A DNA stretch of 64,000 bases from Pseudoflavitalea sp. G-6-1-2 (lineage in GTDB: Bacteria; Bacteroidota; Bacteroidia; Chitinophagales; Chitinophagaceae): contig NZ_JABBGB010000002.1 of the NCBI RefSeq assembly GCF_012927185.1, positions 248,001 to 312,000 of the forward strand, in the 5' to 3' direction. Within the stretch, counting starts at the first letter, position 1. Each line of letters begins with the position of its first letter. Below the pieces are notes generated by a model. The model worked only from the letters and a program-made list of their open reading frames with translations. It was not told where the DNA came from and made no database searches. The position numbers and the translations under genes are program-made. Of the stretch, positions 10,245 through 62,424 are shown one piece after another.

Positions 10245-13200
10245 ATGCAAAAAACTGTTTATGGCTTCGAGGCGGTGCAAGGGCACCCGCCGCCCCGTGA
10301 TCGCATGCGAAGCTCCACCAAATTGTTGCTTGTCATGAAACTGACGCTTGTTCTGCTTATTGCTACTCTGATGTCTGCCCACGCTGCAGGCATAGCACAA
10401 ACTATCACATTGTCTGCCCGGCAAATGCCGTTGAAACAAGTGTTTGCCGAGATCAAAAAGCAAACCAATTATGTTACTTTCACCAGCAAAGACCTGCTGG
10501 CAGACAGCCATCCTGTTACTGTTTCGGTGAATGAAATGCCACTGAAAGATTTCCTTCATCTCATTCTTAAAGATCAGCCATTGACCTTTAACATCGAGAG
10601 CAGTACCATTCTGTTATCGAAGAAGATCACTGCAGTTAAAATGGATCCGGCATTGGTGATCATCGACAGATCACCGTTGGCCGGTATGGTGAAGAATCAG
10701 GATGGAGAACCACTTGCAGGCGCATCCGTTAAAGTAAAAGGGACCGATCGCGGTACCACTACTGATCAGGATGGGAAGTTCACTATCGATGTCAATCCCG
10801 GTGAAGTGCTGCTGGTTTCCTATACAGGTTATGTAGAAAAAGAACAACCGGTGGGAACTGTGAAAATGATTCAAATCACATTGTCGCTTACAGATACCAG
10901 GCTACAGGTGGTAGTAATTGGTTATGGTTCACAGGAACGGAGAAAGAATACAGGGGCCATTTCAAAAGTCACCGGCTTCGATGCAGAGAAGAATGTGGTG
11001 GGCGATGTTACAAAGGCATTGCAGGGAAAGGCTTCCGGGGTTTATGTGAGCAGCGCTTCAGGCACTGTAGGCCAGGCTCCAAATATTCTGATCCGCGGTG
11101 TACAGTCGGCGGATATCGGCCAGAATCCTCCTCTCTTTGTGATCGACGGAGTGATTGTTGATCAGTATAACAGCACTGTATTCAACAATATCATCATGTC
11201 GTTGAATCCTCAGGACATTGAATCTGTTGATGTATTGAAAGATGCAGCTTCTGCAGCGATCTATGGATCGCGGGGATCGAATGGCGTGATCATCATCACC
11301 ACCAAAAAAGGGAAAAAAAGCGCTAAGCCATCTGTAGCCTTTTCCAATTATGTGGGGGTGAACAGACCTTCGTTTTACCGCGATGTATTGAATACGGAAC
11401 AGTATGGAACTTTATTCACCGAATCACGGAATAACCGCATCGGCCTTATCGATGCAAAAATCGCCGGAGGGAACCTCACCCCTGTTCAGATTGCACAACT
11501 CAATACTGAAAAAACAAACCTCAAACAACAGATTGATGCACTTAAACTCGAAAACCGCAGCCGCGATTTTGTAAAGGATATCATCAACAATGGACTGGTA
11601 ATGAATCAGCAGCTCTCTGTAAACGGAGGTTCTGATCTCACCAATTACAATGTATCGCTGGGGCATTATTCCGAAGAGAATTCCATCGGAAGCGGCAACA
11701 GAGAGCGCTATTCTGTGAAGCTCGATGGCAGCCACAAACTTACCAGATGGCTGAAACTGTCTGCCGGTGTGGATTACAGCCGGAGCGTTACAAAAGAAAT
11801 GTCGTTTCCCTATATTGCCGCCACTCAGATAAGACCCGATTCACCGGAAGAACCGGTGCTGAATGCAGATGGATCATTCGGTTTCTATGTTGGGCAGCAA
11901 CAGCACCCACGTGGTGTTTTGCGCGATAACAACAATAAGTTGCTCACCAATATAGTGCTTGCAAATATCAGTGCCGAAATAGATATCGTCAGGAACCTGA
12001 GTTTCAAATCACTGTTTGGCCTCAGCTCAGGTTCCATCAACAATACTACCTACAACTCTCCCCTAACCTATACAGGGAAATTCGATACGGGAAAGTATGT
12101 GGCTACATTCAATAATTCACTCAATTACAATTGGGACAATACGCTCAATTATAATATTCGTGCGGGGAAACTTACCGGTACTGCAACGGTCGGTTACGTA
12201 TTCTATCACGCAGAGAATAATGGAAATGGTTATGAACTCCGCAAGTTCCCGATGATCGGAAGTGTTTCCGGCCCTGCAGCCGGTGGAACATACGCGCCGC
12301 CATCGACCATCGCTACTTATAACAATGCATATCTTGAAAATGCACTGGGAACCTTCGCCAGGGCCAATCTCAGTTACAACGGCAGATATTTGCTCAACCT
12401 GAGTGTACGCAATGATGGAAGTTCCAAACTTTCACCTGGCTATCGTTACAACACATTGCCGGCAATAGGTACAGGATGGGTACTGTCCGAAGAATCGTTC
12501 CTGCGTGGAAACAAAATGATCTCTTTTCTTAAACTCCGTGCGAGCTGGGGGAAAACCGGCAATATCAAATCGATCGGGTGGCTCGACAGATTTGTGAATT
12601 ACACCATCGGCAATTATCTCGGACAGCCTTCGCTGCACATTGGTGGTGCGTTCAATACATTGGGCAACCCTGCACTGTCCTGGGAAGCAACCAAACAAAC
12701 CGATATAGGCATCGATCTCGAATTGTGGAATGGTATGTTCACTTTCAACGGAAGTGTATACAGAAAGCTTACGGAAGGATTGCTCACTTCCTTGCAGCAA
12801 CCTTATTCACTGGGTGGCAATTCATACCGTTACAATCTGGGAAGCATCCGGAATCAGGGCATCGAACTGGAAGCAGGCTATCGTGATGAAGCCGGAAAAT
12901 TCAGGTGGTCTGTTAACGGCAATCTGAGCATCAACCGCAACAAATTGATTTCAATGCGCGATAGCACCGCAGCATATGGCGCCACTGTTTTTGGAGGGCC
13001 TGCATCCCGTAACAGGGTTGGGTTTCCGATTGGAATGGTACAGGTGCTCGAAGCACGTGGTGTGGATCCCGAAACCGGCGATATGATCTATGCCGATCAG
13101 GATGGCAATAAGATCATCAACAATCTCGACAATATCTATGTGCCGATCGCACTGCCAAAATTCAGTGGTGGACTCAATATTGAATCAGGATACCGTGATT

Positions 13201-41140: not shown

Positions 41141-42322
41141 TTGGATAATTCGATCAGTTTAAACAAGTTTATCAGCGATACGGGCTATTGTTCACGAAGA
41201 GAAGCGGATAATCTCATTACCGAAGGACGGGTATTGCTGAACGATAAACCAGCATCGCTGGGTAATCGGTACAAACCCGGAGATACGGTAGAAGTGGATG
41301 GCAGCCTCATAACCGCCGCCAAAAAGGAGAAACGTGTTTACATCGCATTGAATAAACCTATTGGTATCACTACTACAACTGAGTTGCACATCAAGGATAA
41401 CATCATCAGTTTTGTAGGTTATCCCAAAAGGATTTTTCCAATCGGCAGGCTCGACAAAGATTCTGAAGGACTGATTCTGCTCACCAACGACGGAGATATC
41501 ATCAACAAGATCCTGAGAGCCGATAACAAGCACGAGAAAGAATATATCGTAAGAGTTAACAAACCCATCGATCATTCGTTTGTGCAGCAGATGTCGCAGG
41601 GCGTGCCTATTCTCGATACGCGCACCCTCCCCTGCAAGGTGCAGATGATGGGGCGTCAGACTTTCCGGATCACACTAACCCAGGGGCTCAATCGCCAGAT
41701 CAGGCGCATGTGTGAATACCTGGGCTATGCAGTGGTTGGATTGCAGCGTGTACGCATCATGAACATCCGCCTCGACAAACTTGCTGTGGGCAAGTGGCGG
41801 TACCTCAGTGAAGCTGAATTGTCGCTGCTCATGGAAGACATTGCAGATTCAAGCCAGCAGAAAAAGCCGGAGAAACCAGCAAATGGTGCATATAAAAAAG
41901 CTGCACGCAAGTCAACTGCTCCCAAACCTGAATTTGCTCCTAAAGACAGAACACAGACTGGTAGCGGTAAAGCGGCGAAACCAACCTTCAAAAAAGACGA
42001 CAAACCAGCAGCTGGTAATCACAAGAAAACCGGCAATAAGTCAACAGGCTCCAAACCTGATTTTTCGCCTAAGGACAAAGCCAGGGCTGGTTATACCAAA
42101 GCCGCAAAACCTGCATTCAGAAAAGAAGACAAAGCACAGGCAGGAAAGAAGCCGGCCGGTAACTGGAAGAAAGAAAACTCCGGACAGAAATCTGCACCCG
42201 AAAAAAAGCCGCAGCACAATCGTCCGGAAAAAAATGCGGGGAACAATCAGAAAGACAACGATCAGAAAAAGGGCAGGCAGAAAGGGAGTTTCAAAGATTA
42301 CAGAAGCAAAGGACGCCGGTAG
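41141..42322 (+). CDS. rluF: RluF-type 23S rRNA pseudouridine synthase with long basic tail
   Basis: A 393-residue RNA-modifying enzyme. Residues 1-65 are an S4-type RNA-binding domain (LNKFISDTGYCSRREADNLI). Residues ~66-235 are the RsuA/RluF catalytic domain, with the nucleophile Asp105 in IGRLDKDSEGLILLTND and the RluF-specific GLNRQIRRMCEYLGY. E. coli RluF makes pseudouridine 2604 in 23S rRNA. The last 150 residues are a Lys/Pro/Ala/Gly-rich tail with a tandem repeat that the E. coli enzyme lacks, probably for RNA contact. The start is TTG 41141, since no ATG or GTG precedes the S4 domain. Confidence 0.9.
   Translation: MDNSISLNKFISDTGYCSRREADNLITEGRVLLNDKPASLGNRYKPGDTVEVDGSLITAAKKEKRVYIALNKPIGITTTTELHIKDNIISFVGYPKRIFPIGRLDKDSEGLILLTNDGDIINKILRADNKHEKEYIVRVNKPIDHSFVQQMSQGVPILDTRTLPCKVQMMGRQTFRITLTQGLNRQIRRMCEYLGYAVVGLQRVRIMNIRLDKLAVGKWRYLSEAELSLLMEDIADSSQQKKPEKPANGAYKKAARKSTAPKPEFAPKDRTQTGSGKAAKPTFKKDDKPAAGNHKKTGNKSTGSKPDFSPKDKARAGYTKAAKPAFRKEDKAQAGKKPAGNWKKENSGQKSAPEKKPQHNRPEKNAGNNQKDNDQKKGRQKGSFKDYRSKGRR
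41909..42166 (+). repeat. Tandem 129-bp repeat in the RluF tail
   Basis: Two adjacent copies (41909-42037 and 42038-42166) encode similar 43-residue units, the first starting KSTAPKPEFAPKDR and the second KSTGSKPDFSPKDK, each with a Lys-rich AAKPxF block. It is a coding repeat, diverged at the DNA level. Confidence 0.75.
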
Positions 42323-45317: not shown

Positions 45318-45350
45318 AAAAAAGGGCTGCCCTGAGAAACAGAGCAACCC
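45318..45350 (-). terminator. Terminator of the B12-riboswitch operon
   Basis: On the minus strand an 11-bp stem with two G-T pairs (GGGTTGCTCTG with CAGGGCAGCCC) is followed by six T, 24 nt after the DUF5074 gene. Confidence 0.8.
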
Positions 45351-45373
45351 TACGATATTGGAATCAATTTGTT

Positions 45374-46723
45374 TTATTCAAAATTGTAGGTAAAGAATAT
45401 ACCCGCAGGGAATTTTGTATAGTTCTTATAATTCGCACTTACAGCAGCACGATTGCTGAAATTGTATACAGCACAACTGTTGTTCAGATAATCCATGCCA
45501 TATCCTTTGATGGTGTTCATGTAAACCTCACCTGTAAGAGGATGCACGGCAATATTGTTGTAAACGATGTTAGCGTTTTCAATCATACTCTTAGCATCTG
45601 CCATAAACTCCGTTGATCCGATGCTGAATACATGGCGATACATTTTTGTTCCGGCCCCGCTGAAATAAAGTGTATCACCTTTGGCAGTAATGCCGGGTGT
45701 TGCTCCCCATCCTGAACTCAGGCTGCCTGTTGTGATATCATTGGCTTTGATCAAAGAATAATCTCTGTAATTGATCTTGGAGATCTTAGCAGGAGATCCG
45801 GTAGTAGATACCCAGATATTTCCGTCATGGGCTTTTACCAAACCGCTTACAGATGCTTTCATATCCCAGCCGTAACTCAATGTGTCTTTGTTTGCCTCGA
45901 TCACATAGATCTTTGATCCGGCAGCAGCAAAAACTTTATTGTTGGATACAGCCATGGTTAATTTGGCAGCTGATCTCGATCCTTTGATGAACGTAAGTGC
46001 TTTGGTAACTGTATTGAAACGATACAAGCCATTGTTGTCGCGGATGATAACGTTTTCTGCATTAAGCACTGCTATGTGTGTAGGCCAGCTGAGCGAAGCC
46101 AATTCTTCGTCATAAGCCGCTTCTTTTTTGAGTGTTTCCGCATTGGCAACTACCAGCAGTCCATCGTTGACAACTGGCTGCCCCATTGCGTTTTTCTTAC
46201 CATTTTGAGAGATAATGTACACTTTGTTGTTATGAACGTAGAGGTCCTGCGCTACATTTCCGAGATCTGTGCCGTTGGCTTTGAAATAGGCGTTGTCCGT
46301 TACTTTTCCCAGTGGACTGATGAAAGTAAGTGATCCGTTTTCTGAAGTCATGTTTCCTTCGTTCAACACAAATGTTCCGAATTTGTATTTCCCATATACG
46401 GTTACATTGGTTTGAGAAGAAGCTTTTTTGTCGTTGGCTGAAGCTGTTACAGCAATCACATGCTCACCCAGATCATTCGAAACGAATTTGAAGATGGAAT
46501 CTTTCGCATCAACACTCTTGCCATTTACAGTCCAGGCGAATGAACTGCCCGGAGTAGCTTTCACTTTGAATACTACAGTATCTTCCTGTGCAATTGAATT
46601 TTTTGAAAACACATTCACGATTTCTACCTCTGTTGCTTTTACCGGCTCAATCTTATCGTCTTTGGAGCAGGAGACTGTAGCGAGAACAATAGACGTTCCT
46701 AATACTAAAAAACTCTTTTTCAT
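45374..46723 (-). CDS. DUF5074 beta-propeller lipoprotein, BtuG-like
   Basis: A 449-residue lipoprotein (lipobox ATVSCSKDDKIEP). The Ser-Lys-Asp-Asp after the lipid Cys matches the surface-export signal of Bacteroidota. An Ig/PKD-like domain (residues ~30-115, AWTVNGKSVDAKDSIFKFV) precedes a DUF5074/YncE-like beta-propeller starting FVLNEGNMTSENGSLTFISP. Repeats such as NVAQDLYVHNNKVYIISQNG form the blades. Surface beta-propellers of this type include BtuG of Bacteroides, which binds cobalamin very tightly and passes it to BtuB. Position in a cobalamin-riboswitch operon supports the same role here. It is the last of four genes. Confidence 0.85.
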   Translation of the reverse strand: MKKSFLVLGTSIVLATVSCSKDDKIEPVKATEVEIVNVFSKNSIAQEDTVVFKVKATPGSSFAWTVNGKSVDAKDSIFKFVSNDLGEHVIAVTASANDKKASSQTNVTVYGKYKFGTFVLNEGNMTSENGSLTFISPLGKVTDNAYFKANGTDLGNVAQDLYVHNNKVYIISQNGKKNAMGQPVVNDGLLVVANAETLKKEAAYDEELASLSWPTHIAVLNAENVIIRDNNGLYRFNTVTKALTFIKGSRSAAKLTMAVSNNKVFAAAGSKIYVIEANKDTLSYGWDMKASVSGLVKAHDGNIWVSTTGSPAKISKINYRDYSLIKANDITTGSLSSGWGATPGITAKGDTLYFSGAGTKMYRHVFSIGSTEFMADAKSMIENANIVYNNIAVHPLTGEVYMNTIKGYGMDYLNNSCAVYNFSNRAAVSANYKNYTKFPAGIFFTYNFE

Positions 46724-46830
46724 AATCTTAAAAGCTGATTGATTTATACTTACCTGTTTATTGTTTTCAAAGTGAATGCGTGGATGCCCGACAGTTCCTG
46801 CTCTATTGGTCTGTAAACGGAAAGCATGGC

Positions 46831-48354
46831 CTATGGAAAAATCGTTTCGATCTTTGTGCCAAGCATATGCAGGTCTTCTCCACGACCTACTTCGGTGGAA
46901 GCTTCTCCCAGCCAGCCATTGTCCTGATCTACGCCGTTGTAGATCTTTACGAAGTCGATGCCCGGCAGATCAACTTTTTTGCCATTCTTATCGATGGCCC
47001 AGTCTATATCGATGCCAGAATTGTTATGTGCATTAGGATAGTTGTCTGCATATCCGTATCTGAATGCATACAACACGTAATAGCTTCCCTGTCCGCTCTC
47101 ATCCAAACCATTGCTCGAAAGACGGATACCTTTGTAAGTAAGCTTGCTGTCTTTCACCCATGCAGGGTAATAAGTCTGTGAGTGAAATGTATTCTTCACT
47201 TTATATCCTTGCTGCCCCTGGTTATCTGTCCACCTGATGTAATTGCTAATGCTTACATGATTTTGAGGCGTGCCATCCGGAGTTTCTGTAGCCGGACGGT
47301 GATACGTCATTTCATAATCACGGAAGGTTCTTGTATCGAGATTTTTGCTCACAGCAGCGCTGTACCATGGTTCGTTCTCCGCCGTGAAATTGGCGCTGCC
47401 TTTTATCTCGTACCATTCATCTTCATCCGGTTTGCCATTTTTGTTCTTATCGTAGGCAACCATTATCACTCCTGCTTCGCAGCTTCCGCCGAAAGGCGCA
47501 TTGGGACGAGGGTTGGCGTTTGCACCGAATGCATTTCCCCCGATCCTGAAATCGTTTCTGCCCGGTACATTCACAATGGTATGATCGAAGCCAACCACTA
47601 CATATCCACCCCATCCTCCTAAAGTGACGATGTTGGCATTCTCTCCTGTAAGCTCTTTGGCTGCTTTGTTGAGCATGGTTTCGTAGGAATCGCCAGCTGC
47701 ATATTCAGGGAGCTCATTCACAAACTGACCTGGGGCAGGCAGATAATCGAATACTTTTTTGATATAGGGAGATTGCAATTGATCGGGTTGTTTCACGGTA
47801 ACAAGCAGCGTATCTGCCAGCTCTCCTGAAGATACCCTCAGTTTGTACACGCCTCTGTTCACTGTGCTGAACTGTGCAGAGGCAGTGTTGCTTTGTGATA
47901 ACCTGAAGAGTTCAGATGGTGCTGTCAGTACTTCCCATTTCACATTGGGTTTATTGGCGAATTTCTCCGAAGCATCCAGTGTGAGGATGGTATTGGTGTA
48001 CGTTTGCCGGTTTACGTATCTGCCTGTTGTGATCTGAATCACCTTCTGAAAAATATTGCCTGAGTTATATGCCATCACTATCAGGCTATACGAACCGGGA
48101 TCAGCAGACGCCTGAAAATTGTATTTCATGGCATTGGCAACGCGTTGGCCATTCACATGCCATACCAGCGAATCCACTCTGTTTTCTATCACAGGACTCA
48201 GCAGTATGGCTTCTTTCACCAGTACGTAATACTCCTGCTCGAGCCCTGAGATCACAGGTGCAGCTTCAGGAAGCGCAGCATCTTTTTTACCGCAGCTTGC
48301 GATAAAGATTGCAGCGAAGGTCAGGTAAGCCAGTAATTTATGTCGATTGTTCAT
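46831..48354 (-). CDS. PKD-like surface lipoprotein with calcium-type loop (second copy)
   Basis: A 507-residue lipoprotein (lipobox FIASCGKKD) with two Ig/PKD-like domains in the first 210 residues (VWHVNGQRVANAMKYNFQAS, KVIQITTGRYVN). A C-terminal module follows with GFDHTIVNVPGRNDFRIGGN and the loop YDKNKNGKPDEDEWYEIKGS, which has the Asp-x-Asn-x-Asn-Gly spacing of calcium-binding loops. It is related along its length to the first gene of the operon (49408). The function is not established, and cobamide capture or complex assembly is inferred from riboswitch control. It lies 107 nt upstream of the DUF5074 gene. Confidence 0.8.
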   Translation of the reverse strand: MNNRHKLLAYLTFAAIFIASCGKKDAALPEAAPVISGLEQEYYVLVKEAILLSPVIENRVDSLVWHVNGQRVANAMKYNFQASADPGSYSLIVMAYNSGNIFQKVIQITTGRYVNRQTYTNTILTLDASEKFANKPNVKWEVLTAPSELFRLSQSNTASAQFSTVNRGVYKLRVSSGELADTLLVTVKQPDQLQSPYIKKVFDYLPAPGQFVNELPEYAAGDSYETMLNKAAKELTGENANIVTLGGWGGYVVVGFDHTIVNVPGRNDFRIGGNAFGANANPRPNAPFGGSCEAGVIMVAYDKNKNGKPDEDEWYEIKGSANFTAENEPWYSAAVSKNLDTRTFRDYEMTYHRPATETPDGTPQNHVSISNYIRWTDNQGQQGYKVKNTFHSQTYYPAWVKDSKLTYKGIRLSSNGLDESGQGSYYVLYAFRYGYADNYPNAHNNSGIDIDWAIDKNGKKVDLPGIDFVKIYNGVDQDNGWLGEASTEVGRGEDLHMLGTKIETIFP

Positions 48355-48435
48355 TTTGTAAGATTGATTAATGCACTGCCATTTTTTAATGATGGCTTAT
48401 TAAGAAAGCCGGGCGGTATATTGATGTTTACTCCC

Positions 48436-49359
48436 TTAAATAGTCACTTCAACATTATCCATGCACACATAGGCTGGTGTATTCAATCCGTAAGTACCAC
48501 TGTCGTTACCTACTATATTGAATTCAACTCTTGTTACGGTGCCTAAAGCAGACAAGTTGAAATAGGTCCAGGAAGTCAACGGACCCACAACCGGCAGGTG
48601 ATTGAAATACTTTGCCAGATCTATCTGAATGGGATTGCCGCCATTGGTTGCAGTGCTGCCGTTAAAGCCGTATGCCTGCAGTTTCAGATAGCCTTTGCCA
48701 CCCGCTACATCTTTGAGTGGTGTTGCACTGCCAGACCCGCCGAATGTATTGCCGTTGATGATAACTCCATAAGTGTATGAGGAGAGACATACGTACATGC
48801 CTTGTACCACTCCGCTGCCGGATGTAAAGTTCATCGTTGGGCGTGTAGCATAGGACGAATTGTAGCTATCCACATAACCAAACATTACAGCGAAATTGCT
48901 GCTTCCGCCATAACCGCCATTCTTAGCGCCGGAAGTTCCGGAATACACACTGGCCTGATTGAGATAAGAGTACCACCAGTCCCCTGTTTTACCAGGAATG
49001 TTCGCTTTGTGATTCCAGTCGGAAACAATAAAACCGCCGTCCCAGTAATTCACCGGAGATGCTCCGCCAGCGCCTTTGATGGCAAATCTCAGATTGCTTG
49101 GAGAATGTACATAGGGAGTGATTTTGGTGCCGCCATAAGCCGAATAAGCATTGTCTGCATAAGAGGTGGTATCGGCCAGATAACTGCGGCTTAACCCCTC
49201 GAATGTGATGGTATACGTGGTGCTTGTCAAAGCATTCTGACCTGCTTTCGCAGATTGCTGCTGCTCCGGAGACAATAGATCGTTTTGCTTGGAACACGAA
49301 ACAGCAACAAGACAAATGCCCGCAGCTATCAGTGTTTTAGTAAGAACTGTTTTTTTCAT
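48436..49359 (-). CDS. DUF4465 lipoprotein
   Basis: A 307-residue lipoprotein (lipobox VAVSCSKQND) of the DUF4465 family. Residues ~50-307 form a beta-sandwich: TYTITFEGLSRSYLADTTSY, then YWDGGFIVSDWNHKANIPG and GGYGGSSNFAVMFGY, with a final VEFNIVGNDSGTYGLNTPAY ending in VCMDNVEVTI. Its Gly/Tyr-rich face resembles carbohydrate- or ligand-binding modules. DUF4465 genes commonly sit in B12-controlled loci of Bacteroidota. Binding of cobamides is an inference from this context, and I am not sure whether the family includes BtuH. It is 48 nt from its upstream neighbour. Confidence 0.85.
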   Translation of the reverse strand: MKKTVLTKTLIAAGICLVAVSCSKQNDLLSPEQQQSAKAGQNALTSTTYTITFEGLSRSYLADTTSYADNAYSAYGGTKITPYVHSPSNLRFAIKGAGGASPVNYWDGGFIVSDWNHKANIPGKTGDWWYSYLNQASVYSGTSGAKNGGYGGSSNFAVMFGYVDSYNSSYATRPTMNFTSGSGVVQGMYVCLSSYTYGVIINGNTFGGSGSATPLKDVAGGKGYLKLQAYGFNGSTATNGGNPIQIDLAKYFNHLPVVGPLTSWTYFNLSALGTVTRVEFNIVGNDSGTYGLNTPAYVCMDNVEVTI

Positions 49360-49407
49360 AGTTCTAAGTTTAGATAAGATTTAAAAATCGGTTTGCCCGG
49401 CTTTCTA

Positions 49408-50883
49408 TTAATTTTTGAGGTGCTTGTCTGTAATGGATGCTACGTGCAACATGCGTCCTTCCTCCATGTTGAAGTCTTTCTTTTCTCCGCCGGCATTGAT
49501 GAAATCCTGTTGGAACGGATACACCACTTTCTGAATCTTCACGAAGTTGATTCCCGGCAACTGCACACGCTCGCCTTTGCTGTTCACTGCCTGATCGATA
49601 TCGATATTCAGTTTTTGAGAAAATGAAACGGCTCCGGTGAGGTCTTTGGTGATGCGTTTTCCAGTGCGCGTGAAAGTGTCTTTCCAGCCATTCAGCAACC
49701 CTACCTGTTTGGAAGGAAAGTCAATCATGTTGTAGCCCGGAAAGAAACCTTTTGTTGAGAGCAATCCATCCATGGTCATGGAACTGCTGTAAGATTTTGT
49801 ATTGATCACTTCTCCTTTCGCCGGCTCTTTTTGATTGTCCTGCCAGTTGAAATAAGTGGATATTCTTTTTGCGTCGGTTTCTGTTTTCTGATAAGTGAAA
49901 GTGATAGCATAATCCGGCAGATCTTCTATTCCGTAATCTTCGTTTTTGATCTCATACCATTCATCGTTATCCGGTTGTCCGTTTTTGTTGCGATCGTATG
50001 CCACATACACAGCCGGGAGATCGAGTCTGGAATAAGTTGCAGACAATTCCAGATCGGGTTTGCCGGGAGCATTCACTACTGTGTGATCGAATTTGAACGT
50101 AGCAGATCCACCCCAGGAGCCAAGAATAAGGGCAGCGCTGAAATCCTGCTTTCTGATCTCAGTGGCTTTTGCCAGAAAATCGGTGTAGCCAAGGGGAAAC
50201 TCACTGCCGTAATCCCAGAACTCTGCATCGCCAATGATAGACCAGTTGTGGTTCTTAGCCGGTGCAGGAAGATATTCCAAAACGGTAAAGGCATTATTTA
50301 CATACGTTGCCGGCTTAACTGTAATGGTGCGTGTAGCGCTTGCTGTTTGTTTGCCAGCTGTGGCACGGAGGGTAAGATCATAAGTGCCTGCGGCAGGAGA
50401 GATAAAATTCAACTGCTTGTTTTTGCCAATTACTGAATCTCCGATCAGCCATTCATACGTGTAATCATTTCTGTCGGGCCCTGTTACCGATGGAGTGATG
50501 TCAATTACTTCACACATGGCAACAGTAAGTTTGCTTTCCATCGAAATGGCAATGGCTTTTTCCACGAATATTTTGAATGTCTGGCTGTCTGATCCTCCAG
50601 GGTTTTCTACTTTGAATGCTACATCGAAATTTCCCGGCTCTGCAGCTTCGAAAGTGAAATTGAGCTGGCCTGTGGCTGCTTCCTTCCCATTGATCAGCCA
50701 GGTGTATTTGTTGCCTTTGAGGTTAGTGACGTTGGGCGCCAGTACCATCTTGTCACCGATGTTCATTACTATTGTCTCCGACCCTACTCCGGAAATACTG
50801 GGAGCCCGTTCCTGTTCTTTTTTGCAGGCGAATGCAAAGAACAAAACAACGGTGAGCAGTTTCAGCAAAATACTTTTTTTCAT
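49408..50883 (-). CDS. PKD-like surface lipoprotein with calcium-type loop (first copy)
   Basis: A 491-residue lipoprotein (signal MKKSILLKLLTVVLFFAFA, lipobox AFACKKEQE) that opens the riboswitch operon. It has two PKD/Ig-like domains (NKYTWLINGKEAATGQLNFT, YTYEWLIGDSVIGKNKQLNF) and a C-terminal module with FKFDHTVVNAPGKPDLELSA and the calcium-type loop YDRNKNGQPDNDEWYEIKNE. The same order of modules occurs in the gene at 46831, so the pair arose by duplication. It is preceded by a leader of about 590 nt whose first 200 nt are the cobalamin riboswitch. A role in surface cobamide binding is inferred. Confidence 0.82.
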   Translation of the reverse strand: MKKSILLKLLTVVLFFAFACKKEQERAPSISGVGSETIVMNIGDKMVLAPNVTNLKGNKYTWLINGKEAATGQLNFTFEAAEPGNFDVAFKVENPGGSDSQTFKIFVEKAIAISMESKLTVAMCEVIDITPSVTGPDRNDYTYEWLIGDSVIGKNKQLNFISPAAGTYDLTLRATAGKQTASATRTITVKPATYVNNAFTVLEYLPAPAKNHNWSIIGDAEFWDYGSEFPLGYTDFLAKATEIRKQDFSAALILGSWGGSATFKFDHTVVNAPGKPDLELSATYSRLDLPAVYVAYDRNKNGQPDNDEWYEIKNEDYGIEDLPDYAITFTYQKTETDAKRISTYFNWQDNQKEPAKGEVINTKSYSSSMTMDGLLSTKGFFPGYNMIDFPSKQVGLLNGWKDTFTRTGKRITKDLTGAVSFSQKLNIDIDQAVNSKGERVQLPGINFVKIQKVVYPFQQDFINAGGEKKDFNMEEGRMLHVASITDKHLKN

Positions 50884-51290
50884 AAGTTATTTTTTCGGTT
50901 TCCCTGCACTTGCATCCATGCATGAAGATGCCATCCGGAAGAACGGTTTGTTTTCTTGCCGGCAGTAAACGATACAACTATCTGCTGATGCAGGTTTGAA
51001 GCAGATAACTGACGATGATTTTCTGAGAATGATTTTATTTCACCTGGCCTTGCGTAGTTGAAAAAACAGGAATAACACCTGTGGATTCAGCAATAAATTG
51101 TTCCGGACTTGCTTTCGGATTGAGTGTACATCAATAAATAAATGCTATGCCGGCAGCGTACACATTGCTGACATGCCATTGATAATTGATTTCCTCGGAT
51201 AACCTACCGGATGACAAACAAAAACAAAAGACCTTGAAATAAATTAGTTTAAGATGTATTCAAGCCTCATCCTCGAAAGCTTAAAACCTA
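50884..51290 (-). other. Long untranslated leader below the riboswitch
   Basis: About 400 bases separate the aptamer from the first gene, and no gene of normal size is visible on either strand. A 15-codon frame (MASSCMDASAGKPKK) starts near 50934 on the minus strand and stops 3 nt before the first ATG. A TTTAAGC/GCTTGAA stem follows the aptamer directly, and the T-rich stretch after it (TCTTTTGTTTTTGTTTG) is the best candidate for an expression platform. Confidence 0.5.
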
Positions 51291-51484
51291 TCTGCATTGG
51301 CAGGTCTCCTGACTTGTTCTCACTTTCGACGGCCTTCCCATTTTTATTCACTAAAAACAGTGGCGTGCAGATGTCGAAGTGTTGTTGCAGAACTTACAGT
51401 AGCGGGTCTGTTCAGGATTTTCACCTGATTCCCTATTAATCCCGACATCGTGAAATGTATGCCGGGAACCAAAGCGGGGCGAAA
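51291..51484 (-). ncRNA. Cobalamin riboswitch
   Basis: Reading the minus strand, the conserved elements occur in order: GGTTCCCG, TAATAGGGAATCAGGTGAAA, ATCCTGAACAGACCCGCTAC followed by TGTAAG, CCACTG, TGGGAAGGCC, and AGTCAGGAGACCTGCC. These are the core motifs, including the B12 box, of cobalamin riboswitches. Binding of cobalamin should switch off the four-gene lipoprotein operon that starts at 50883. A promoter ends a few bases before the aptamer, so the whole aptamer is in the leader. The expression platform is not certain. Confidence 0.95.
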
Positions 51485-51510
51485 GTACTATTAATTGAAC
51501 ATACTGCCAA
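51480..51510 (-). promoter_or_regulatory. Promoter of the riboswitch operon
   Basis: On the minus strand a TTGG -33 element (51507-51510) and a -7 TACTTTCG (51480-51487, one mismatch to TAnnTTTG) are about 19-20 nt apart. They place the transcript start just before the aptamer. Confidence 0.55.
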
Positions 51511-54056: not shown

Positions 54057-57000
54057 TTATTCTTTTACAATCTTAGTTACTTTCACTTCTTTTCCTCCAT
54101 TCTTTACACGCAGCAAATAAACGCCCGAAGGCAATGTGGAAATATCGATCTGCGAATTCACTGCGCGCACTTCGCGACGCAATACCAGTCTGCCATTTAC
54201 ATCGAACAGGCTCAGGTCCGATTTTCCTGCAAAGCCAGACAGATTCAGGTTAACCGTACTGGTTGCAGGGTTCGGATACACATCCACTTTCTGCACGCCA
54301 TCTGCTGTGCCACGGTCAGTTTCGCGGCTTGCAGTTCCTAACTGAACTTTCAATGTGTAACAGGTTGTTGCGCTGTTTGCACCGTTGTATCCGTATACCT
54401 GTGCATAGTAAGTGCCCGGCGTCATTGTTCTGCTGATTGTTTCACTGCTGGTTCCGCCCAACTGTGAAATTGCAAGCTGTGTTCCTGAACTGTTCAGCAG
54501 CTTCAGATCATAATCACCAGGAAGTGTTCCAAGCGTAATGGTGATGGTGCCTCCTGTGGTGATCACGAACTTGTAATGATCGATATCGTTTGCCGGGCTG
54601 ATTAGTCCGGTTACATTGGTGTTGAATGGAATGGTTGCTGCACCACCAGTTGTACCGTTGGTTGAGTTATCCAATGGACTAGCACAGGTTAATGTGAGAG
54701 TGGTGAACTGCGCAACTGCATAAACACTTGGGCCTGCAGAGCAATTGGCTCTTACTCTCCAGTCGTACAAGGTGCCGGATGCAAGTGAACTCAATGCAAC
54801 GGATGTGGAGGTGGTTGCAGTGGCTGCGTTGGTCCATGTACCGGAAGAGTTTTGTTTGTAATCCACATCGTAGTTCAGTGCTCCGCTTACGGCTGTCCAT
54901 GATACTGTCGCACTGGTGGCTGTAACCGAAGAACTGGTTAAGCCGGTAGGTGTACCACAGCTGGAGGTGGTAGTGAATTGTGCAGCTGAATACGTGCTGC
55001 TTCCACTGGCACAATTGGCTCTTACTCTGTAATCGTAAATGGTTGCTGCTGTAAGTGATGAAAGAGCAACTGAGGTAGATGTTGTTGCTGTAGCTGCATT
55101 GATCCATGTGCCTGATGTACTGGCTTTGTAATCCACATCATAAGATACAGCACCGCTAATGGCCGTCCAGCCTACGGTTGCGGAGTTGTTGGTAATTGCA
55201 GATGCTGCTAAGCCGGATGGCGATGCGCAGGACGAACCTGCAGTAATGATGAAGTCCGCATTTGAAATATCGAAGAAGATATTCCCTACTGCTTCCACTT
55301 TTATCCTTGCTGTTGTTGAAGGTGTATTGGGTATGGTCACTGCTTCAGATCCATCATTCGCAGTGCTCGCTACCAGTGTGCTGAAGGTATTGCCGCCATC
55401 TGTTGAGATGGATATTTTCACGTTGGCACAAGCCACAGGCAACGCTGTTGTATTGGCTACATCCCATGTGATGGTTTGTGCTGAATTGCCTGCCCATGTT
55501 ACGTTTGTATTGGGAGATGTTACCACAAACGGACCTGATGCTGCATCTACGGTGAGTGTGAGTTCCGAAAAGTTTGTCTGGCCGATGGATACAGGCGCTG
55601 TGGAGCTGTACGGCGCATTGTCTCTCACTGTGAGCCTGAACTTCAGGGTTCTTGCAACAGAGCTCAATGCTTCTGTATTTGCATTGGCATCGCCACCCGG
55701 TAATGGTCCCGATACTAGGTTGCCGGCGAGTATGGTGGCCAGCTTAGGGAAGTATCTGGTGGGTGAAGTGGTAGGTGCAAAAGAGATCCAGTTTGGTCCG
55801 GTTGCTTTGGTTGGGCTTGCAACACTCGCAGTACCTGTTTGTGAGGTTCCTGCCAGATCGTATTGTTCCCAGCAATACGTGAGTATGTCGCCTGCATTGG
55901 CATCGGTTGCTGAACCTGTCAATGCAAATGGAGTGCTTTTGGGAATGGTGCGGTCGCTGCCTGCTGTAACAACAGGTGTTGCATTGTTGGCAGAGATCAC
56001 AGTGGTAACCGGACAAGTTTTGGTGTTCAGGTTATTCTGGATCTGCCAGATGCTCACAGCATGATAGATGGGTATGGAGTGAGGCGCAACATCCTGCCCG
56101 GTAATGCCGGCATATCCCATGATGGTGATGCCGGAACCTACTTCCATATTGGCTTTGGTGCCTTCATTGTTCATGGAGAAAGTATGGTTGGCTCCCAACT
56201 GGTGACCAACTTCGTGCACAACATAATCGATGTCGAAATTATCTCCCTGAGGAATAGCATCGGCAGGTGAAGTGAAGCCACTTCCCTTTTGATTATCTGT
56301 ACAGATACAACCGATGCATCCTGCATTACCGCCTCCTCCACTTGCTCCGAACAGGTGACCGATATCATAATTGGCTTCACCGATCTGAGCGGTAAGGGTT
56401 GTTTGCAGTTCGTCGTTCCATGCGCCACCGGCTCCGGTGCTGGCCACTGAATACGGGTCTGTGGAAGGATTGTAGTAGATCACATTGGTGCTGGCTGCAA
56501 TCAGGTTAAGGTGCAATGCAAGATCCTTTTCATAAATGCCGTTGCAGCGTGTGAGCGTGGCATTGATAGCTGCCAGTACAAGAGAAACCTGTGCAGCGCT
56601 GGTGGCTCCGAAATAATTGGAGTACTCGGCAGTAACCGACTGCGCGAGGCGCAGGGTTTTCATATCACCTGTTGATCTGTTCACTACGGTGCCTGCCTGA
56701 GTGGTGATGAGATCAGACATCTTTTGTTCCGGTGTACCGCATTTCCAGGGCAGGTTTCTGGGCTGCTTTTTGAATACGGCATACACTGTGTGATCTGCAG
56801 AATACGGCTCAATGAATTCGGTTGCCTTTTCGTTGCGGAACACCATTGTCTGGATGCCCTGTGGCGAAATGCTCAGCTTCAATCTCGCTTCCTTGTCTGT
56901 GATGCCTTTTCCTGAAAAGGATCTGATCTCAGGAAACTGCGCCTGAAGCGCCGGTTCGAAATTGGATGCTTCAACGATCTCGAATTGTTCAATCTGCCCA

Positions 57001-57242
57001 TCGGCATTCGGCAACGAAATGATGCTCGACTGAGCCCCTGTTCTTCCGATTGCTTTGGATGTCTCCACCTGCAATGGAGCGAATTTCAGATCGAATAATT
57101 TAAAAGTTGCAGGAAATGCAAGCCGCTCAACGGCTTTGTCGGTAGTGATTCCGGCGGTTGCGTTATGTGGCCGCCAGTAATCCTGCGCAAGCAACATTGT
57201 ATGACACAATATTGCCATTGTAAAAAGTAGAATTCTTCTCAT
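54057..57242 (-). CDS. Secreted reprolysin-like metalloprotease with FN3 repeats and T9SS tail
   Basis: A 1061-residue exported protease. After the signal peptide (MRRILLFTMAILCHTMLLAQ) and a propeptide-like region comes a reprolysin/metzincin domain with zinc site HEVGHQLGANH (residues ~343-353). Beyond it are an Ig-like region, two fibronectin type III domains (ATVGWTAISGAVSYDVDYKA and ATVSWTAVSGALNYDVDYKQ), a PPC-type domain (DIDHYKFVITTGGTITITLG) and the C-terminal type IX secretion domain (VDVYPNPATSTVNLNLSGF to VKVTKIVKE). The T9SS tail directs it across the outer membrane. It probably degrades extracellular proteins. It is preceded by an inverted repeat and a -7-like AATATTTG on the minus strand. 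Confidence 0.92.
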   Translation of the reverse strand: MRRILLFTMAILCHTMLLAQDYWRPHNATAGITTDKAVERLAFPATFKLFDLKFAPLQVETSKAIGRTGAQSSIISLPNADGQIEQFEIVEASNFEPALQAQFPEIRSFSGKGITDKEARLKLSISPQGIQTMVFRNEKATEFIEPYSADHTVYAVFKKQPRNLPWKCGTPEQKMSDLITTQAGTVVNRSTGDMKTLRLAQSVTAEYSNYFGATSAAQVSLVLAAINATLTRCNGIYEKDLALHLNLIAASTNVIYYNPSTDPYSVASTGAGGAWNDELQTTLTAQIGEANYDIGHLFGASGGGGNAGCIGCICTDNQKGSGFTSPADAIPQGDNFDIDYVVHEVGHQLGANHTFSMNNEGTKANMEVGSGITIMGYAGITGQDVAPHSIPIYHAVSIWQIQNNLNTKTCPVTTVISANNATPVVTAGSDRTIPKSTPFALTGSATDANAGDILTYCWEQYDLAGTSQTGTASVASPTKATGPNWISFAPTTSPTRYFPKLATILAGNLVSGPLPGGDANANTEALSSVARTLKFRLTVRDNAPYSSTAPVSIGQTNFSELTLTVDAASGPFVVTSPNTNVTWAGNSAQTITWDVANTTALPVACANVKISISTDGGNTFSTLVASTANDGSEAVTIPNTPSTTARIKVEAVGNIFFDISNADFIITAGSSCASPSGLAASAITNNSATVGWTAISGAVSYDVDYKASTSGTWINAATATTSTSVALSSLTAATIYDYRVRANCASGSSTYSAAQFTTTSSCGTPTGLTSSSVTATSATVSWTAVSGALNYDVDYKQNSSGTWTNAATATTSTSVALSSLASGTLYDWRVRANCSAGPSVYAVAQFTTLTLTCASPLDNSTNGTTGGAATIPFNTNVTGLISPANDIDHYKFVITTGGTITITLGTLPGDYDLKLLNSSGTQLAISQLGGTSSETISRTMTPGTYYAQVYGYNGANSATTCYTLKVQLGTASRETDRGTADGVQKVDVYPNPATSTVNLNLSGFAGKSDLSLFDVNGRLVLRREVRAVNSQIDISTLPSGVYLLRVKNGGKEVKVTKIVKE
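54700..55232 (-). repeat. Tandem FN3-encoding repeat
   Basis: Two adjacent units of about 265 bp encode similar fibronectin type III domains, with shared blocks such as ATATTSTSVALSSL. The DNA is also similar, pointing to an internal duplication within the protease gene. Confidence 0.7.
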
Positions 57243-60690: not shown

Positions 60691-62424
60691 CTACTCCGCA
60701 AATCCTGAAGAAGAACTGATATTCACATCTGCATATTTCCATGCTTCTTCAAATGCTTCCTTCGCCTTTTTCGCATCGGCATGCCTGTTTTGTTTTTCCA
60801 ACGACTGTTGAAGTCCTATCAATGCCCACCCGTTCTTTTTCCATGTCTGCAAATCGCGGAGATACACTTTCTCTGCTTCAATGTATTTTCCAGCCTTGAG
60901 CAAAACAGCTCCCAGATAATGCCGCACAGAGAAGAACCAGTCAGGTGGTTCGTTATAATTGAGCTTGTCTTCTAAAGCAACGGCCTGCTGCAACAGCGTG
61001 ATCGATTTGTTGATTTCCTTTTGCTGCATCGCTATTCCTGCTGACAAAACTTTTACAGCAATCTGCACAAGGTCGCCAGTGGTATTGATGTTCCATATAG
61101 TGATTTGTTGCAGTGTGGTATCGGATGAGAGCATCGCAAGACTATCCATTTCTTTTTGTGCTGCAGGCATATTGTGTTTTCCAAGAAATGCCATTCCCTT
61201 TGCATAATGCCAGATAGCGCGTGGATAAACAAGGTCCTTCGCCGGTGGTGCAAATGCAAGTATTGTATCCCACATGGAAAGCTTCACAGCTATATAGTAT
61301 GGTATGATATGGTAATGCTGCAACGTACCCCATCCGGGCATCCGCATAATTTCTTCCGAAGTATGCTGCTCCAGTTTTTTGGCAGCTTTCCACGCCAGTG
61401 CAGTATGGCCTTCGAGTGTAGCTGTAGCAGCCAGGAAATGATAGTTATGAGGATAATAAGATAATGGATACGCCCCCTGTGCATGGCAGGCGGTTGTATA
61501 GATACTGTCTACATTCACTGCATTGATATTCGATAATGAACCGGCATGATAGTCTCCCGTATTGATGTAGATATGCGAAGGCATATGCAACAGATGTCCG
61601 GACCCCTGCACCAATGTTTCGAGCAGCTTCGCGCTGGGCAGTGCTTTTTCGGGCGTTGCCGATGCTTCCATTGCATGTACAAAATAGTGATGTGCTCCCG
61701 GATGTTGAGGATGCTGCTTCATCAGATGCTCCAGAACGCTGATCAGCTCTGGCGTCCAGGGCTTTGGAGCCTTGCTGGCTTTGTCGTACAGGTCCCATGG
61801 ATGCAGGTCCATGATCGCTTCCGCATACAGCGCTCCCACATCGGCATCCGTTGAAAACTGCGCATACACTTTCTTCATTGCAGCTGCATATGCGATATCC
61901 AATGCACTCCGGTCGGCCGGTGGTTTTTCGGCATACCGCACCATCAATGCATCGATCAATGCCTTTTCTTTTGGTGTGGAATTTATAGAAAGCGACTTCG
62001 CCTTATTCACTGCTTCCCAGGCCCGTTGATAATTATCTTCTTCCATTCCTCCATTGTAATTGGGACCAAGCACAAAAGCAAATCCCCAGAAAGCCATGGC
62101 GCAGCTGCTATCGAGCCGGCCAGCTTCAAAGAAAGATCTTGCTGCTTCCGCATGATTGAAACCATATGCCAGCATCATACCCTGATTAAAATACTCCTGT
62201 GCTTCCGGAGAAGTTGTTGTAACTGTAAATTCAATGCCATCGAGCCCTTTGAATTTCGGTGCTTTTTTTCCCGATAAATACCATTGCTTATCGGTTGTGT
62301 TGGGGTTATAACAGCCAATTGCCTGTGATGATTTTCCGGATGACTCTGCTGGTTTCTTCTCCTCCCCGTTATTGCATCCGGACAACACCAGCAATGCGAT
62401 AGCCGACAAATAAATCTGCCTCAT
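60691..62424 (-). CDS. His-rich TPR-like lipoprotein
   Basis: A 577-residue lipoprotein (lipobox VLSGCNNG) with helical TPR-like repeats throughout (YFNQGMMLAYGFNHAEAARS, AWEAVNKAKSLSINSTPKEK, HYLGAVLLKAGKYIEAEKVY). Its central part has conserved-looking His clusters: HHYFVHAMEA, HLLHMPSHIYI and PHNYHFLAA. Such a set suggests a metal or heme site, yet the family is annotated only as TPR. It is preceded by a 247-bp upstream region with no clear promoter. Location in periplasm or on the surface follows from the lipobox. Confidence 0.8.
   Translation of the reverse strand: MRQIYLSAIALLVLSGCNNGEEKKPAESSGKSSQAIGCYNPNTTDKQWYLSGKKAPKFKGLDGIEFTVTTTSPEAQEYFNQGMMLAYGFNHAEAARSFFEAGRLDSSCAMAFWGFAFVLGPNYNGGMEEDNYQRAWEAVNKAKSLSINSTPKEKALIDALMVRYAEKPPADRSALDIAYAAAMKKVYAQFSTDADVGALYAEAIMDLHPWDLYDKASKAPKPWTPELISVLEHLMKQHPQHPGAHHYFVHAMEASATPEKALPSAKLLETLVQGSGHLLHMPSHIYINTGDYHAGSLSNINAVNVDSIYTTACHAQGAYPLSYYPHNYHFLAATATLEGHTALAWKAAKKLEQHTSEEIMRMPGWGTLQHYHIIPYYIAVKLSMWDTILAFAPPAKDLVYPRAIWHYAKGMAFLGKHNMPAAQKEMDSLAMLSSDTTLQQITIWNINTTGDLVQIAVKVLSAGIAMQQKEINKSITLLQQAVALEDKLNYNEPPDWFFSVRHYLGAVLLKAGKYIEAEKVYLRDLQTWKKNGWALIGLQQSLEKQNRHADAKKAKEAFEEAWKYADVNISSSSGFAE

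Follow-up and report, generated by a model that had tools for sequence, protein, structure and literature searches.

The window analysed here, a 64-kb stretch of contig C2 in the 6.1-Mb genome (G000) of Pseudoflavitalea sp. G-6-1-2, carries a cobalamin riboswitch followed by four lipoprotein genes, here named H1, J, H2 and G', with no gene for the B12 receptor BtuB among them. We suggest that this is probably a surface cobamide-capture operon that has become detached from its receptor: it would have arisen from a complete riboswitch-btuB-btuG-H1-J-H2-G' uptake operon by deletion of btuB-btuG in place, and would now feed a non-cognate BtuB-BtuG complex encoded elsewhere in the genome. The system is of a known kind, and its new part is the recurrent loss of the linked receptor from an operon of B12-capture lipoproteins. 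The original prediction, made from the sequence of the window, had proposed a capture layer that passes its ligand to a receptor elsewhere; the receptor-less layer and the distant BtuB were both found, and the hand-off itself we infer.

A capture operon without its receptor genes

The riboswitch is a full-length RF00174 aptamer (51282..51488, minus strand; model positions 1-189; 110.1 bits against a gathering threshold of 31.5, E 1.1e-26), as clear as had been predicted, and is the sole Rfam match at gathering threshold in the window. Four open reading frames (ORFs) lie 3' of it, all on the minus strand and spaced by 48-107 nt, and the product of each, read by eye, starts with a lipoprotein-type signal ending in Cys. 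H1 (49408..50883, 491 aa) and H2 (46831..48354, 507 aa) had been described as two related PKD-like lipoproteins; PKD-like domains are present, two of them in H1, but each protein also has a C-terminal BtuH-type domain. In H1 this is a BtuH-fold domain (residues ~193-488) from which the B12 contacts of BtuH2 are absent, and in H2 a canonical BtuH domain (~188-498). J (48436..49359, 307 aa) is a DUF4465 protein of the BtuJ family and G' (45374..46723, 449 aa) combines a PKD domain with a DUF5074 beta-propeller of the BtuK/BtuG type, both in line with the first description. Pfam matches are PKD_3/PKD for H1, DUF4465 for J, and DUF5074 and PKD for G', with sub-threshold matches only for H2. The idea that two of these families have no B12 role had to be given up, as BtuH (PMC8941943) and DUF4465/BtuJ (PMC12751083, PMC13398666) are published B12 binders.

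None of the four ORFs is btuB, the gene whose presence in the operon marks a complete B12 uptake locus. The B12-receptor model TIGR01779 has a single, weak match in the window (28.2 bits, ~10905-11339, C2:258905-259339), inside a 1156-aa frame, which agrees with the predicted lack of BtuB.

Like the window operon, B12 loci 1 and 2 of B. thetaiotaomicron (PMC8941943, PMC12751083) place BtuH, BtuJ and BtuK/BtuG-type lipoproteins under a cobalamin riboswitch. Compared with those loci (btuB/btuG/btuH/btuJ/btuK/btuL), the window operon is without btuB, a receptor-paired second BtuG and BtuL, and its H1 has the BtuH fold but lacks the BtuH2 contacts. The riboswitch-btuB-btuG-H1-(J)-H2-(G') operons of Chitinophaga, Gynurincola and related genera have the same gene order, ~60-79% protein identity and a homologous leader; J or G' is absent in some of them, and the window differs by the btuB-btuG gap between leader and H1.

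B12 contacts in the lipoproteins

Homology gives good support to cobamide capture by J and H2. H2 is homologous to the BtuH domains in BtuGH (8blw, E 4.3e-62) and BtuH2 (7biz, E 9.3e-34). The reference BtuH2, from a B. thetaiotaomicron-like locus (L241), carries Q333, N399, F401, H476, Y510, W511, W577 and L578, in agreement with the B12 contacts given in PMC8941943. At these eight positions all 12 H2 orthologs read Q N F H Y (Y or F) W L, so that seven of the contact residues are identical in 12/12 and the eighth, Trp511, is replaced by Tyr or Phe. J matches BtuJ2 (9i2l, E 1.3e-55) and keeps all five of the BtuJ2 contact positions (Tyr, Tyr, Asn, Thr, Tyr) named in PMC12751083, where the numbering is one lower than in the L241 frame, together with the NTPAY loop. 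Among 11 J orthologs, nine keep five contacts and two keep four. In alignment A2 the row for L087 starts late, an internal start having been chosen.

BtuH is reported to bind B12 and to confer a fitness benefit (PMC8941943), B12 is bound by BtuJ1, BtuJ2 and BtuK1 (PMC12751083), and eight distantly related DUF4465 proteins also bind it (PMC13398666). J shares the signature residues of the DUF4465 family (IPR027828). The neighbourhood of the DUF4465 binders, as presented in PMC13398666, frequently though not universally includes a TonB receptor, and the window operon has none.

By profile and predicted structure H1 is a distant BtuH, here classed as BtuH-fold rather than BtuH. Its profile matches 7biz (E 1.1e-26), and in its structure model (predicted local distance difference test, pLDDT, 88.4) residues 193-488 align to the BtuH domain of 8blw_B (Z 20.2, root-mean-square deviation, rmsd, 3.1, 237 aligned). 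All eight BtuH2 contact positions differ or are gapped in the window H1, in an alignment that is loose near 476 and 577. A BtuH fold without the BtuH2 contacts makes it probable that H1 binds by another mode or has a supporting role, and singles it out as a conserved BtuH-fold protein without an assigned ligand. Its position adjoining btuG suggested that H1 might be BtuL; this was rejected for want of homology to the 696-aa BtuL of L241, to which the H1 profile scores 2.6 bits, against 107 bits to the BtuH2 of that locus. H1-like genes occur in tandem after btuB-btuG in L148 (Phocaeicola abscessus, three copies) and L245 (G461, two copies). In a B12 locus of Bacteroides congonensis (L149), a 427-aa lipoprotein-like ORF (L149:7382-8665) without a match to the H1 or H2 profiles lies between a BtuH gene and an H1-like gene.

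G' matches Pfam DUF5074 with E 1.3e-67, and the first-ranked Foldseek match of its model (pLDDT 79.7) is BtuK2 (4r5o, E 2.2e-18). Aligned to 4r5o by VIA over residues 25-446, it gives Z 28.6 with an rmsd of 9.2 taken across both domains (N-terminal PKD-like and propeller). For the propeller, BtuG1 (Z 30.3, rmsd 3.3, 300 aligned) and BtuK1 (Z 30.0, rmsd 2.7, 308 aligned, 23% identity) tie, and other propellers follow at Z 23-27. The G' sequence profile reaches BtuG entries (E 3e-8), with no BtuK among the matches listed. In the structure comparisons of H1 and G' the absence of a family was not taken as evidence. G' may perhaps bind cobamides. Orthologs of G' (72-74%) are also found behind a cobalamin riboswitch of their own, apart from the H1 operon, in two short loci, L103 (G140) and L105 (G004).

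Probable deletion of btuB-btuG in place

Full-length H1 was found in 12 of 394 genomes of the family searched and in 23 named loci (L125-L147, among the best 80 of 90 loci); seven species are common to both sets, giving 28 species with the window included. Relatives with the same genes as the window operon are Chitinophaga, Pseudoflavitalea, Filimonas and their allies. In 22 of the 28 species btuB and btuG immediately precede H1, in the order btuB, btuG, H1, and in six the pair is absent there: the window, Filimonas zeae, Chitinophaga dinghuensis and three Pedobacter. Rfam confirms the riboswitch in 19 of the 28 loci; among the other nine, for which a consensus pattern search only was used, the pattern is present in six, including two receptor-less Pedobacter, and was not seen in L142, L143 or L144. 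The contig of L142 begins inside btuB. L133 (Chitinophaga sedimenti) has several split frames, over which its btuB, btuG and H2 matches are spread through sequencing errors or decay.

It had been argued beforehand that finding btuB behind this promoter in relatives, and the four proteins unlinked from it, would speak against a dedicated capture operon. The gene is indeed upstream in most relatives, but the lipoproteins are linked to it, and the window operon therefore appears to be a receptor-deleted standard locus rather than a separately built system. Among the literature matches listed there is nothing on receptor-less btu operons or on a Chitinophaga btuH; more than 80% of the btuH homologs in a gut panel share an operon with btuB (PMC8941943), and thus some do not.

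The leader of the window operon is 398 nt long. Its first 100 nt after the aptamer (51182..51281) are homologous to the riboswitch-btuB leader of relatives, with 82% identity over 102 nt to C. barathri (L145, E 1.5e-21). There follow ~280 nt without a significant match (50902..51181, limits approximate) at the site of btuB and btuG in relatives, and then 13-18 nt preceding H1 (50884..50901); these and the opening codons of H1 form a joint match to the btuG-H1 junction in relatives (L083: 78% over 74 nt, E 7e-12). At the matching place in C. dinghuensis, the btuB signal peptide and N-terminus can still be read up to a break, and the receptor-less Pedobacter loci keep a shorter stub of the btuB start. 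The deletion of btuB-btuG is thus read directly from the sequence in these two lineages. For the window, the match of its leader to the btuB leader and the broken btuB starts in two lineages make deletion in place the most likely course; the F. zeae leader behaves like that of the window, and the same is proposed for it.

Recurrent loss and selection

A tree built from H1+H2 covers 27 of the 28 species, L133 being left out because of its split frames, and shows the receptor-less loci in four places. F. zeae groups with two genomes of its genus (support 100), C. dinghuensis falls inside a Chitinophaga clade (99), the window is sister to that clade (70), and the receptor-less Pedobacter form one clade (100). 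Since some deep supports are low, four losses are an estimate, and the receptor pair appears to have been lost in about four lineages.

Lipoproteins left useless by the loss of btuB-btuG could in principle persist by inertia, and the missing receptor pair and the ~280 nt of leader that match nothing would suit such decay. It is nevertheless very unlikely. None of the four window frames is interrupted, and each shares 70-77% identity with its C. barathri (L145) counterpart; the receptor-less form is shared by three Pedobacter species and appears repeatedly, in about four lineages. Purifying selection acts on the lipoproteins of the Pedobacter copies: in the two of three pairs that were scored, the ratio of nonsynonymous to synonymous change (dN/dS, NG86) is 0.06-0.11 (H1 0.08-0.10, J 0.06-0.11, H2 0.07-0.09). 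Between the window and C. barathri, synonymous change is saturated or incomputable, and third positions differ 2.4-4.7 times as often as first and second positions.

Receptors elsewhere and the proposed hand-off

The genome contains five cobalamin riboswitches, two of which precede TonB receptors; the search for BtuB under similar riboswitches that had been recommended thus yielded two, in L007 and L008. L007, on another contig and under its own riboswitch of 105.7 bits, encodes a BtuB that matches BtuB1 (8blw_A, E 5.4e-131) and a propeller that matches BtuG1 (8blw_B, E 4.9e-50). The pair is of the same type as the BtuB1-BtuG1 complex 8blw (BtuB-BtuG complexes are described in PMC10404256); it differs in lying on a different contig from the window operon, under another riboswitch, with no adjoining BtuH or BtuJ. 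Two relatives of this locus, L043 and L091, have BtuH before btuB, and its absence from L007 would fit a reciprocal loss. L008:9468-17235 looks like a cobamide salvage cluster, with a riboswitch, a BtuB (TIGR01779 E 1.3e-79, below the model cut-off), a periplasmic binding protein, a diphthamide-synthase-family protein, CobT, CobS and an ORF that by eye is phosphatase-like.

Each receptor-less genome searched keeps one BtuB of the L007 type (5/5; Pedobacter KBW06 was outside the search). A BtuB tree of 35 sequences included 17 of the 22 operonic BtuBs (L133, L136, L142, L143 and L144 were left out). Sixteen operonic BtuBs form a clade with support 100, and B. pyogenes joins next (100). The clade includes L120 from G002, an assembly of 640 contigs in which full-length H1 was not found. 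No BtuB retained by a receptor-less genome belongs to the operonic clade; these BtuBs branch at four places outside it, so that the lipoproteins of such genomes are now accompanied by a receptor from a different clade.

We propose that, when cobamide is scarce, the riboswitch would permit expression of the window operon, as has been shown for the B. thetaiotaomicron loci (PMC12751083). J and H2, and perhaps G', would then bind cobamides at the cell surface or on vesicles, with H1 contributing by its other binding mode or supporting role, and the bound cobamide would pass to the L007 BtuB1-BtuG1-type complex, whose BtuB is of a different clade. The proteins might instead serve mainly in storage or competition, sequestering cobamides on cells or vesicles, a function already suggested for BtuJ in B. 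thetaiotaomicron, where a private receptor would be unneeded. In B. thetaiotaomicron, vesicles with BtuJ1 or BtuJ2 supply cobalamin (PMC12751083), immunoprecipitation showed no strong contact of BtuH2 with BtuB2/BtuG2 (PMC8941943), and the repeated loss of the linked receptor fits a low partner specificity. None of the four proteins, however, is BtuL, the vesicle-promoting protein (H1 and H2 by profile; J and G' belong to other families), and such a role, which we regard as possible if somewhat doubtful, overlaps with capture and hand-off rather than excluding it.

More tentatively, the capture lipoproteins might in general make up a module without ties to a cognate receptor, one that has repeatedly been cut from btuB-btuG and feeds whichever BtuB-BtuG is kept, with H1 as a new BtuH-fold class that has another ligand or a docking role. 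If this were true, the receptor-less genomes would be a natural, repeated partner-swap experiment showing generic hand-off. The published studies consulted leave unsettled whether BtuH, BtuJ and BtuK must dock on their own BtuB-BtuG or form a free capture layer, and receptor-less operons in genomes with a BtuB of another clade make the question directly testable outside gut Bacteroides.

Several observations weigh against the proposed origin and function. The 280-nt stretch of the window contains no significant remnant of btuB or btuG, only weak 17-nt matches to Pedobacter leaders, and the right-hand match is mostly H1 coding sequence (61 of 74 letters in L083), its leader part being 13-18 nt; for these reasons the evidence for a deletion in the window comes from the left-hand part of the leader and from relatives. 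The genes flanking the window operon were found in none of the 20 relative loci examined for them. The operon therefore also lies at a different place, and it is possible that it moved rather than being simply deleted in place. BtuK2, the best full-length fold match of G', showed no cobalamin binding in the published assay, nor did BtuL (PMC12751083), and the failure of BtuK2 means that G' may not bind. Finally, Gln333, His476, Tyr510, Trp511 and Trp577 are kept in none of 12 H1 orthologs, Asn399 in one, and Phe401 and Leu578 in four each.

This last pattern, in a protein that is yet strongly conserved and whose H1-like copies have multiplied in two Bacteroidales loci, could mean that the module, and H1 above all, captures another corrinoid or a molecule other than B12. 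We consider this unlikely, given the B12 contacts that J and H2 retain and the control of the operon by a cobalamin riboswitch. Cobamide capture with hand-off to the L007-type complex remains the preferred reading.

Putative promoter and terminator, and neighbouring genes

The operon had been credited with a promoter of its own. A putative element, TACTTTCG (51480..51487, minus strand), lies at the 5' edge of the aptamer and fits the pattern TAnnTTYG, which we take to be the Bacteroidota -7 type consensus and whose background frequency, as a window average, is 0.02 per 60 nt. At the same place in 15 H1 loci of relatives, TAnnTTYG occurs in 6 and TAnnTTCA in 6 more. A sigma-70 scan, on the other hand, gave 6 promoter-like sites against 11.5 in shuffles and lends the promoter no support. 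The fold of the leader at 51160-51300 is no more stable than shuffles (z 1.22). A terminator closing the operon was also predicted, and an intrinsic-terminator-like hairpin with a 12-pair stem and a T run does follow the G' gene (45323..45351, minus strand); terminator-like sites in the whole region number 7, against 5.5 +/- 2.5 in shuffles.

Two further cobalamin riboswitches of the genome precede metE (L006) and the gene for a ribonucleotide reductase small chain (L009), the latter followed by a 793-aa ORF read by eye as the large chain; both products are B12-independent enzymes. In G003, a BtuH-type gene (L044:8686-10266) stands under its own cobalamin riboswitch (10507-10709, minus strand), and two BtuB queries found no match in the 19.5 kb of that locus.

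Elsewhere in the window, a 577-aa ORF at 60691-62424 (minus strand) has no Pfam match at E 1e-5, and a reprolysin-like metalloprotease with fibronectin domains and a Por-type secretion tail is encoded at 54057-57242 (minus strand). The pseudouridine synthase gene downstream of the operon is present in 10 of 15 genomes searched, the window counted. Nine stretches around this gene in relatives, one of just 2.8 kb, were compared for an empty site of the operon and showed no match to the neighbouring M1-peptidase or RDD genes. For L253, the window gene at 41141 has a homolog that adjoins the pseudouridine synthase gene, in reversed order.

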